Notes under the pieces: generated by a model
Seen by the model: only the letters and a program-made list of their open reading frames with translations
What the model was told of the DNA's origin: nothing
The model's database searches: none
Part shown: positions 6,326 through 12,209 of the stretch, one piece after another
Position numbering within the stretch: position 1 is the stretch's first letter
How the letters are laid out: the number at the start of each line of letters is the position of its first letter
Translations under genes and position numbers: made by a program
Assembly: GCA_029239905.1 (NCBI GenBank)
Contig: JARBUB010000003.1
Coordinates: 1 to 35,811 of the forward strand
Direction: 5' to 3'
Length of the DNA stretch: 35,811 bases
DNA from: Clostridia bacterium
Lineage (GTDB): Bacteria > Bacillota > Clostridia > Lutisporales > Lutisporaceae

Positions 6326-8097
<1,772 letters not shown>

Positions 8098-8559: not shown

Positions 8560-8988
8560 ATGAAAAGCAGGAAAGACTATATGAAAAAAGTATATTCCAG
8601 TAAATCAGATGATGAAAGTAATAATAACAGTACATATATGGTTATGCTAAAATCACTTTTGATTTGTTTTATCATTTCGTTTGTGATGATACTTGTTTAT
8701 GCATTGATACTATCCTTCTCTTCGATTTCTGATGCATCGATGTCTAAGGTTACTCAAACAATATTGATAATCAGTGTAGCAATATCCAGTGCATATGGCG
8801 GCAAGAAAACTCGCCGTAGAGGATGGATGTTTGGCTCAGTACTTGGTCTAATATTTGCAGCACTTCTGATTCCCTTTGGAATGGCCGTTGGTCAAGCCTT
8901 TGTAATGGATATGTTTCTTGTAGCAAAGCTGCTTGTTACAGCCGCAGTAGGAGCAATTGGTGGTATAATAGGAGTAAATTTAAATTAA
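8560..8988 (+). CDS. TIGR04086-type membrane protein
   Basis: Four predicted TMs, glycine-rich; characteristic position between yajC and scfA. Confidence 0.75.
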   Translation: MKSRKDYMKKVYSSKSDDESNNNSTYMVMLKSLLICFIISFVMILVYALILSFSSISDASMSKVTQTILIISVAISSAYGGKKTRRRGWMFGSVLGLIFAALLIPFGMAVGQAFVMDMFLVAKLLVTAAVGAIGGIIGVNLN

Positions 8989-9065
8989 AGCTGGTAAATA
9001 TCTCTTTCCTACCCATTTTTAATATGGTATAATCTTTAAGTAAAATGTTAGGAGGAGGATTGTAA

Positions 9066-9251
9066 ATGAAGCATATAATGACACTAAACAACAGAACATT
9101 AAGCGATAGTTCAGTAAAAGGCGGTTGTGGAGAATGCCAAAATTCTTGCCAATCAGCATGTAAAACATCCTGTACCGTTGCAAATCAAAAGTGTGAAAAC
9201 GTTGAAAACGGCAGAGTACATAAGGCAGAGAGTCGTAAGATAACGCTGTAA
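9066..9251 (+). CDS. scfA: SCIFF (six-cysteine) ranthipeptide precursor
   Basis: MKHIMTLNNRTL...GGCGECQNSCQSACKTSCTVANQKCENV: six Cys in SCIFF spacing; RBS AGGAGGAGG. Confidence 0.93.
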   Translation: MKHIMTLNNRTLSDSSVKGGCGECQNSCQSACKTSCTVANQKCENVENGRVHKAESRKITL

Positions 9252-9270
9252 TTTAAATATTTTTATACAT

Positions 9271-9300
9271 TAAGCAGTAGCAATTCGTTGTTACTGCTTA
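9271..9300. repeat. 13-bp UUCG-capped hairpin downstream of scfA
   Basis: TAAGCAGTAGCAA-TTCG-TTGTTACTGCTTA, one G.U pair, no T tract. Confidence 0.75.
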
Positions 9301-9401
9301 AAATGTTCTATGATGATAATTGTTGTTGAATAAGACAAGCCTTGATATAGAACTATAATAGTATTTAGGAAAAAAATAACACGGATTAAACGAGGTACAT
9401 T

Positions 9402-9908
9402 ATGATAATTAAATATAAGAACTTTAGTCCCCAAATAGCCAATGATACTTTTATTGCAGAAAATAGTACAATAATAGGAAGGTGTACAATTGAGGCTAAC
9501 TCAAGTGTTTGGTTTAATGTAGCTATACGCGCGGATGTAAACGAGATTGTAATTGGAAAAAATGTTAACGTTCAAGATGGAAGTGTTATACACTGTGATC
9601 ATGAATATGCAGTATCAATTGCTGACAATGTTACAATAGGTCATAACGCAATTATACATGGCTGTAAAATAGCTAGTAATTGTATAGTAGGAATGGGTTC
9701 TACTATATTAGACGGAGCGACAATTGGAGAAAACTGTATAATAGGTGCAAACTCTCTGATAACCTCCGGTAAAGTAATTCCTGCAGGATCTTTGGTAGTA
9801 GGCAGTCCAGGAAAGATAATAAGGGAACTAACTGTTGAAGAAATTGAGGGTATAAAGAAGTCTGTTGCAGAATATGTGATTTTATCCAAACATTATCTAT
9901 CTGAATAA
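9402..9908 (+). CDS. Gamma-carbonic anhydrase-like left-handed beta-helix protein
   Basis: Hexapeptide repeats, DGSVIHCDHEYAVSIADNVTIGHNAIIHGCKI with metal-binding His residues. Confidence 0.9.
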   Translation: MIIKYKNFSPQIANDTFIAENSTIIGRCTIEANSSVWFNVAIRADVNEIVIGKNVNVQDGSVIHCDHEYAVSIADNVTIGHNAIIHGCKIASNCIVGMGSTILDGATIGENCIIGANSLITSGKVIPAGSLVVGSPGKIIRELTVEEIEGIKKSVAEYVILSKHYLSE

Positions 9909-10076: not shown

Positions 10077-11327
10077 ATGAAATCCAAAAGTATAGCAAAA
10101 TTTACAGCAATAATGCTGCTGATTGCATTTTTAGCATACTTAGCAGCATTTGGAATGCCATTAGGCAATTACAGTATTGTTCCAGTAAAAGAAAATATAA
10201 AGCTAGGCCTTGATTTAAGAGGTGGAGCTACAGTTATTCTTGAAGCAAAGGATGATCCTGCGGACCCATTAACTGATGAAAAAATGGATAGAGCCGTAGC
10301 GACATTAAGAGAGCGTGTTGACTCCCTTGGCGTAGCAGAGCCTACAATAGTTAGACAGGGCAAAAACAGAATTGAAGTTCAATTACCAGAAATTAAGGAT
10401 ACACAAAGAGCATTAGAGGTTATTGGACAGACAGCTCAACTAGAGTTCAAAGATGAAGCTGGCAAAGTCGTAATAACAGGTGCTGATATAGACAAAGCAA
10501 ATGCAGTAACTGGCGACGGAATCGGACAGTCTTATGTAGTTGCTTTTGAACTTAAACCAGAAGGTGCAAAGAAATTTGCTGAAGCTACAAGAAACAATGT
10601 TGGAAAACCAATTGGTATATATCTAGATGAGAAACTTATTTCTAATCCTGTAGTTGAAAATGCTATAGAAGATGGCAAAGCTCAAATCACAGGGCAAAGC
10701 ACAAGAGAAGAGGCTCTTGACCTGGCAACATTGATCAGAGCTGGAGCACTACCTGTTAAGCTTGATGTTTTATCAGTAACAGCAGTAGGACCACAACTTG
10801 GGGCGAATTCATTTGAGAAGAGCGTATACGCTGGAACAATCGGTATTATATTAGTTATGATTTTTATGGTTGCCTTTTATAGACTTCCAGGTCTAGTAGC
10901 AAACATTACCCTAGTTTTATATACTATTATAACTTTAGGTGCAATGGCGGGTATAAACGCAACTCTTTCACTGCCAGGTATTGCAGGTTTAATTTTATCT
11001 GTGGGTATGGCAGTTGATACAAACGTTATCATATTTGAGAGAATTAAAGATGAAATAAAGGTTGGAAAGTCCTTAAGAGCAGCTATTGATGCTGGATTTA
11101 GAAGAGCCTTCCTGACAATAATAGACTCCAACGTAACAACACTGTTAGCAGCTGCGATACTTTTCTACTTCGGAGCTGGCCCAATCAAAGGCTTTGCGGT
11201 AACACTTTCGATAGGTATTATAGCAAGTATGTTTACAGCAATTACTGTTACTAAGTACTTGATGGGACTTTTAGTAAAAAGCGGCGTGGAAAACAAGCGC
11301 TTGTATGGAGTAAGGGAGGGGAAATAG
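10077..11327 (+). CDS. secD: Protein translocase subunit SecD
   Basis: LGLDLRGGATVILEA; C-terminal TM domain with SVGMAVDTNVIIFERIKDE. Confidence 0.96.
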   Translation: MKSKSIAKFTAIMLLIAFLAYLAAFGMPLGNYSIVPVKENIKLGLDLRGGATVILEAKDDPADPLTDEKMDRAVATLRERVDSLGVAEPTIVRQGKNRIEVQLPEIKDTQRALEVIGQTAQLEFKDEAGKVVITGADIDKANAVTGDGIGQSYVVAFELKPEGAKKFAEATRNNVGKPIGIYLDEKLISNPVVENAIEDGKAQITGQSTREEALDLATLIRAGALPVKLDVLSVTAVGPQLGANSFEKSVYAGTIGIILVMIFMVAFYRLPGLVANITLVLYTIITLGAMAGINATLSLPGIAGLILSVGMAVDTNVIIFERIKDEIKVGKSLRAAIDAGFRRAFLTIIDSNVTTLLAAAILFYFGAGPIKGFAVTLSIGIIASMFTAITVTKYLMGLLVKSGVENKRLYGVREGK

Positions 11328-12209
11328 ATGAGAGTTTTCAATTTTATGAAATACAAAAAAATCTGGTTTGGTATTTCTGGTTTTATAATTGCAGTAGGTC
11401 TTGTATTTCTTATAATAAATGGTGGTTTAAACCTTGGAATAGATTATACAGGCGGAACATCCATACAAATTGATTTTGATAAGGAATATGATTTAGAAAA
11501 AGTGAGAGATATAGTATCAAAATATGATAAAGATGCTATTGTTACCTATGCTGGAAATGATAATGAGTTAGCTCTTATAAGAACAAATATAGGTTTAGAT
11601 GTTGAGAAACAAGGTGAACTAAAAAGTACACTTAAAGAAAACCTAGGCGTTGAAGAGACAAATATTCAGATTGAGTTCATAGGACCTTCAATAGGCAGTG
11701 AATTAATGAAGAAAGCGTTAATTGCTTTGATACTTGCAAACTTAGGTATTTTACTTTATGTTTCAGTAAGATTTGAATGGAGATTAGGTTTATCTGCAAT
11801 CGTCGCGCTTGTACATGATATATTAATAATGATTACCGTATTTGCAGTATTACAAATACCTGTAGGCTCATCATTCTTAGCAGCATTGTTAACTATTATC
11901 GGTTATTCAATCAACGATACTATAGTTATTTTTGACAGAATTAGAGAAAATATGAAGAGTCATAAGAAGATGGATGAAGATGACCTTGTTAATTTAAGCA
12001 CATCACAGTCATTGACTAGAACTATAAATACCTCAGTTACTACTTTAATTACTATTTTAGCTCTATATATTTTAGGGGTACCAGCTATTAGAGATTTCGC
12101 TTTACCGATGATAGTAGGTATAGTTAGTGGGGTTTACTCAACGATATTTATTGCAAGCCCAGTATGGGTTATGTTGAGAAAAGTTCGTAAAACAGCTTCA
12201 AATCATTAA
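11328..12209 (+). CDS. secF: Protein translocase subunit SecF
   Basis: LGIDYTGGTSIQI; SINDTIVIFDRIREN; directly follows secD. Confidence 0.96.
   Translation: MRVFNFMKYKKIWFGISGFIIAVGLVFLIINGGLNLGIDYTGGTSIQIDFDKEYDLEKVRDIVSKYDKDAIVTYAGNDNELALIRTNIGLDVEKQGELKSTLKENLGVEETNIQIEFIGPSIGSELMKKALIALILANLGILLYVSVRFEWRLGLSAIVALVHDILIMITVFAVLQIPVGSSFLAALLTIIGYSINDTIVIFDRIRENMKSHKKMDEDDLVNLSTSQSLTRTINTSVTTLITILALYILGVPAIRDFALPMIVGIVSGVYSTIFIASPVWVMLRKVRKTASNH

Follow-up and report, generated by a model that had tools for sequence, protein, structure and literature searches.

The SCIFF locus and its neighbourhood

The window, i.e., the whole stretch of 35,811 nucleotides that was analysed, carries at 9066..9251 of the forward strand scfA, a gene for a SCIFF six-cysteine ranthipeptide precursor of 61 residues (MKHIMTLNNRTLSDSSVKGGCGECQNSCQSACKTSCTVANQKCENVENGRVHKAESRKITL) that ends at a TAA stop; a profile search of its own genome (G000, a MAG with 343 contigs and 77% completeness) found no other SCIFF. 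SCIFF peptides are found in most Clostridia, and in the products of the ranthipeptide class a cysteine is joined by a thioether to a non-alpha carbon. The open reading frame matches the TIGR03973 profile with 81.3 bits (cut-off 50) over model positions 1-43 of 43, and both the six SCIFF cysteines and the 18-residue tail are as the original prediction described them. The leader (residues 1-20, 9066..9125) is assigned by family alignment, and its role by CteA/CteB; it is followed by the six-cysteine core C21-C43 (9126..9194) and, after the sixth cysteine, by the C-terminal tail ENVENGRVHKAESRKITL (residues 44-61, 9195..9248). In the alignment, the six cysteines in conserved spacing, the donor C32 and the acceptors T34 and T37 are all present; across the family the six cysteines, C32 and T37 are invariant, and the core pN/pS is 0.007. 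Usually no more than a few residues come after the last cysteine of these peptides, a trait that lies outside the model, and here 18 residues follow. Since a short C-terminus is not a defining SCIFF feature, membership in TIGR03973 stands.

Upstream of the gene lie an extended -10 promoter element (TGGTATAAT, 9025..9033) and a ribosome-binding site (AGGAGGAGG, 9050..9058), both recognized by sequence, and the GGAGG core of the latter is conserved upstream in relatives. TATAAT stands at the matching place in all 17 Lutisporaceae SCIFF loci; a generic promoter-consensus scan gave no more sites than expected by chance. A usual upstream neighbour of SCIFF, a TIGR04086 membrane protein (8560..8988), is also present, preceded by tgt and yajC. 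Downstream, 9252-9401 (the rest of the interval initially considered) is intergenic with a strong hairpin and leads to a gene for a gamma-carbonic-anhydrase-like hexapeptide-repeat protein (9402..9908), in the place taken by the maturase gene scfB in most Clostridia, and then to secD and secF (10077..12209), the usual context downstream of SCIFF-scfB. All of these features are on the forward strand. The gamma-carbonic-anhydrase-like (gCA) gene is an ancestral neighbour and is not known as part of the pathway. As predicted, no SPASM maturase adjoins the precursor, and neither of the two radical-SAM proteins of the window, HemZ (TIGR03994) and one of TIGR03279/DUF512 type, is such an enzyme. Between queA and tgt, a 208-residue membrane-type protein (6326-6952) without an NCBIfam match keeps its place in most of Lutisporaceae and in family f58.

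The SCIFF stop is followed by a 14-bp hairpin (TTAAGCAGTAGCAA-TTCG-TTGTTACTGCTTAA, 9270..9301, forward strand), a likely terminator or 3'-end hairpin that is conserved in sequence. Sixteen of the 17 family members carry the form ARGCAGTAAYA ... TRTTACTGCTT behind this stop, with loops of 4 to more than 30 nt, and among 15 aligned family hairpins none of the eleven predicted pairs is broken and four have both sides changed. The hairpin occurs once in its own genome, which rules out a dispersed repeat, and Rfam gave no match for it. Among the non-family loci compared, a covariance model placed it only after SCIFF in G040, G060 and, weakly, G147, and a pattern search added G050. In G050, G060 and G147 it separates SCIFF from scfB, and in such adjacent pairs it may set the ratio of precursor to maturase; a T run accompanies it in G040 and G010. 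Loci with the GCAGTAA...TTACTGC hairpin, from Lutisporaceae and a few further families, are L061-L076, L008/L185, L099, L019 and L240, in addition to 9270-9301 of the window. The hairpin stays at 14-40 nt from the stop in the family, much as in tail-less lineages (6-27 nt), and this kept spacing indicates that the tail is extra sequence rather than simple read-through of the old 3' end. Judged from sequence, the hairpin would be a terminator or attenuator after scfA that is older than the tail, and it probably ends the SCIFF transcript.

A selected C-terminal tail confined to Lutisporaceae

The family sample comprised 22 searched genomes, including Lutispora thermophila (G013), L. saccharofermentans (G021) and Go_SlDig_bin_83 (G011). 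SCIFF was found in 17 of them, and the homologue alignment that had been proposed as a check revealed a tail of 12-19 residues in every one of these precursors. E44, N48 (9207-9209) and R50 (9213-9215) are invariant in all 17, and position 51 is occupied by V, I or L, giving the pattern C-E-[NS]-[VIL]-x-N-x-R-[VIL] followed by about 10 less conserved residues. The distal half differs between genera, and the tail of G006 has only 12 residues. The tail is indeed longer than the usual SCIFF end, for outside the family 155 of 156 distinct precursors have 2-9 residues after the last cysteine and one has at least 11. This lone exception (G023) carries an unrelated Ala-rich tail of 19 residues and an adjacent scfB. 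When an HMM that contains the tail was run against Clostridia (335 positive genomes), the match reached position 59 or 60 in Lutisporaceae only, among the matches listed, and elsewhere among these it ended at or before position 50 or crossed a stop codon.

Nonsynonymous and synonymous differences per site were counted within genera in the style of Nei and Gojobori. The resulting pN/pS of the tail is 0.08 for the genus of the window, 0.30 for genus g2 and 0.41 for Lutispora, similar to the leader (0.25-0.33), with 0.00-0.02 for the core. Synonymous variation in the tail is as high as that of the core, which places the constraint on the protein; the tail is under purifying selection within genera. 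A misread stop codon, which had been considered as a source of the tail, is ruled out because four congeners keep an identical tail length despite diverged synonymous sites. The tail is thus a genuine variation of a known precursor family, specific to Lutisporaceae. Our literature search found no report of a tailed SCIFF and none on Lutispora ranthipeptides.

A second family trait is residue 26 (9141-9143), which is Asn in 17/17 Lutisporaceae precursors vs. 2/156 outside, where the usual residue is Thr or Ala; G040 and G060 likewise have Asn, and the remaining precursors Thr, Ala, Ser or Val. In NxxcA, another ranthipeptide, an Asn is the cross-link acceptor (PMC8326336). In CteA, Cys32 forms its link with Thr37 or Thr34, with the gamma carbon named in later work (PMC8326336), and the CteA leader is bound by the RRE of its maturase CteB, according to structural work as relayed in PMC8326336. 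Products of SCIFF precursors have been reported in quorum sensing (PMC8326336, PMC8102284), and peptide arginases are known with some SCIFFs (PMC12703449). It is conceivable that an arginase of this kind would act on the conserved Arg of the tail.

The maturase at a distant locus

The original prediction had suggested that the maturase might have relocated and might act in trans, and had proposed a whole-genome search with TIGR03974. This search returned one match over the cut-off, of full length and 669 bits (cut-off 425), on contig C53, which is not that of scfA (gene at 949-2304, profile match at 952-2280). This supports relocation, and ScfB would act in trans. Against the NCBI exception model 'not_ScfB' the protein scores 580 bits, of 855 needed, and it aligns over 446 residues (574 bits) with PDB 5wgg, CteB of Clostridium thermocellum. 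The 5wgg structure is named as CteB in PMC8326336. An RRE (assigned from the N-terminal alignment to CteB), a radical SAM domain, a SPASM domain and the cluster cysteines are all present, and all 12 family members compared retain the 13 cysteines that are invariant in other ScfBs. The family ScfBs also share 34 fixed substitutions, some of them replacing residues that are invariant elsewhere; 13 of the 34 are in the SPASM part, and several adjoin cluster cysteines. Given these substitutions, their chemistry may differ from that of CteB.

Upstream of this scfB, a G+C-rich hairpin with a T run follows a trxB-like gene, and GGGGG and a TTG start come next, which makes scfB look like a separate transcription unit. 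The order trxB-like, scfB, pduL, deoC is found wherever a family contig is long enough. Directly upstream of scfB in the family are genes for a CAAX-protease-like (Rce1/CPBP) membrane protein (6669-7649 of L084) and a thioredoxin-reductase-like flavoprotein (5789-6649 of L084). The former was not seen in genus Lutispora; it is possible that the two neighbours are processing or redox partners.

An ScfB over the cut-off is present in 16 of the 22 genomes, with a broken or partial scfB in three further ones (G010, G014 and G019), and in none of the Lutisporaceae loci does scfB adjoin SCIFF. For example, on a 1.7-Mb contig of G007 one of the genes is at 21 kb and the other at 695 kb, which makes a distance of 674 kb. 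The family ScfBs form a single clade in the tree (support 100/99) on a long stem branch, consistent with a single relocation and vertical inheritance thereafter. The searches of G009 (94% complete) and G015 (84% complete) yielded no SCIFF and no true ScfB, and it is possible that these two lost the whole system.

Linkage and gene order outside the family

Of the other named loci, 76 have a readable SCIFF; in all 73 of these with room downstream, scfB starts within 650 bases, and in 56 of 60 further genomes it lies within 450 bases of SCIFF. The order SCIFF-scfB-gCA-secD occurs in L147, L227 and L232, and SCIFF-scfB-gCA in L225, L228, L248 and L253. In a tree of QueA, Tgt, RuvB, SecD and SecF, the closest outgroups among the genomes compared are L147 and G040 (support of 100% for their group with Lutisporaceae and of 80% for the pair). 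From this ancestral order in related lineages it follows that scfB left and that gCA did not fill the slot. The original prediction correctly placed a gamma-carbonic anhydrase in the scfB slot as an observation, but insertion of that gene is ruled out, gCA being the ancestral neighbour of scfB. In genus Lutispora gCA is gone as well, and secD directly follows SCIFF. Because pduL, with or without deoC, is found near lgt without scfB in other lineages, scfB probably moved into an existing pduL-deoC neighbourhood.

Unlinking has also occurred elsewhere. An unlinked scfB with a tail-less precursor was found in G024, G032, G033, G040, G047, f58 (G152 and G262) and f44 (G123), and the families with an unlinked scfB and no tail number seven (f4, f12, f13, f20, f27, f44 and f58). 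In G262 a single contig carries both genes, at a distance of 64 kb. In G040 the order is SCIFF-hairpin-gCA, the precursor stops after CEKN, and scfB stands beside a feoB-like gene. The ScfBs of G024, G032, G033 and G040 (L098, L186, L187 and L097; four families) constitute a deep clade of their own, apart from the operon-linked ScfBs (100/100, 600-621 bits to TIGR03974), so these unlinkings were probably separate events; the clade may represent a horizontally spread type of maturase. Since scfB is unlinked without a tail in seven other families, the tail is probably not a mere consequence of unlinking. The notion that it is a scar of relocation found no support, G040 being unlinked yet tail-less; nonetheless, unlinking in G040 was probably a separate event, its ScfB belonging to another clade, and this notion probably survives that one case.

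Two further loci should be mentioned. A second ScfB over the cut-off in G050 (L288, G050:C11:55149-56474; 613 bits) groups with the ScfB of G060; no SCIFF was seen beside it, and the genome already has an adjacent pair. At about 1163-1440 of L038 (G025:C84), a tandem-duplicated SCIFF encodes one precursor of 89 residues that contains two full leader-like/core units (CENTGRIRTLNTRNLVSGEGGCGEC...), with scfB directly after it.

Function of the tail and competing explanations

It appears highly probable that an ordinary SCIFF system, likely a working one, is fixed in Lutisporaceae, with ScfB acting in trans and the tail as a lineage-specific follower or processing element. The SCIFF precursor would be made from its own short transcript, from the extended -10 promoter to the 3' hairpin. 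The distant ScfB would bind the leader with its N-terminal RRE and form one or more Cys32-Thr thioether links, as in CteA/CteB; since all residues of the CteA reaction are present here, the same reaction in trans is to be expected. On the stem of the family, scfB would have left the SCIFF-scfB-gCA-secDF string for its present place upstream of pduL-deoC, where it has a ribosome-binding site of its own and is preceded by a terminator-like hairpin, and on the same stem the precursor would have gained its coding C-terminal tail. Placed after the core, the tail is distinct from the segment that the RRE is known to bind; it would serve, outside leader recognition, as an element of recognition or of removal after cross-linking. 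The proximal E-[NS]-[VIL]-x-N-x-R-[VIL] resembles a short element for recognition or cleavage, and the end after it is less constrained. N26 and the 34 fixed ScfB substitutions may belong with the same trait. Against this explanation, the variable distal half and the 12-residue tail of G006 may mean that most of the tail is unimportant; the incomplete state of the MAG and the fixed changes in ScfB also count against it.

The absence of scfB beside the precursor and the two MAGs without either gene (G009 and G015) could be taken to mean that the maturase was lost and that the peptide is decaying or, as the original prediction had allowed, is an orphan or has a new role. A full-length scfB in the same genome contradicts this, and so do the very low core pN/pS and the invariant cysteines (including C32) and T37; a binning error for C53 is countered by 15 relatives in which scfB has the same context. 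Orphaning is therefore extremely improbable. A neutral tail without function, drifting since a stop codon was lost, would accord with the variability of the distal part between genera and the one 12-residue version, and is nonetheless quite improbable given purifying selection in the three genera tested, E44, N48 and R50 invariant despite near-saturated synonymous sites, and the kept spacing of the hairpin. It is equally improbable that the tail arose to recruit the unlinked maturase, in compensation for lost co-expression. Tail and unlinking do coincide in all 17 SCIFF-bearing family genomes (three with a broken or partial scfB), and the stem branch of ScfB is long, but the tail-less unlinked systems listed above speak against recruitment, and so does G040, one of the two nearest outgroups, with its SCIFF-hairpin-gCA order and its precursor ending after CEKN.

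Whereas a follower or processing signal is the reading that we prefer, retention of the tail in the product is its main rival. As part of the mature peptide, the tail would alter activity or receptor and, with N26 and the diverged ScfB, create a new signalling variant; this is possible, if rather doubtful. The family-wide N26, the fixed ScfB changes next to cluster cysteines and the reported role of SCIFF products in quorum sensing favour it, whereas Asn26 may be a neutral replacement. It is likewise conceivable, although on the unlikely side, that Lutisporaceae possess a distinct ranthipeptide sub-type, with a true follower (E44..N48-x-R50), an N26 core and a co-diverged ScfB in trans, leading to a product or processing route unlike that of every other SCIFF.

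The original prediction held that an scfB gene elsewhere together with the same tail in relatives would point to a lineage variant. Both were found; the variant is an unusual one, such a tail being found in Lutisporaceae only. The distant scfB accounts for the apparent orphan, and in this respect the case is ordinary. A selected, removable C-terminal extension offers a natural probe of how SCIFF precursors are recognized and processed. The mining set of PMC5300114 required scfB within 500 bp of scfA, and genome mining with such a limit would miss whole families.

Comparison with known systems

The precursor resembles TIGR03973 members (CteA, Tte1186a; ScfA) in its leader MKHI.T, its six-cysteine spacing and C32/T34/T37, and its locus shares their tgt-yajC-TIGR04086-SCIFF-(gCA)-secDF context. 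It is unlike them in its 18-residue tail with invariant E44/N48/R50, in N26 for T/A and in the lack of an adjacent scfB. The maturase is like ScfB of TIGR03974 (CteB, PDB 5wgg/5why) in its full-length alignment, its CNIRCGYC radical SAM motif, its SPASM domain and its 13 cysteines; unlike that of CteB, however, the scfB of Lutisporaceae is distant and keeps company with trxB-like, pduL and deoC genes, and its product carries 34 family-specific fixed substitutions. In having precursor and maturase apart in the genome, the system is comparable to the unlinked systems of f4, f12, f13, f20, f27, f44 and f58. Those systems have no tail, unlike Lutisporaceae, and the ScfBs of f4, f12, f13 and f20 form a separate deep clade.
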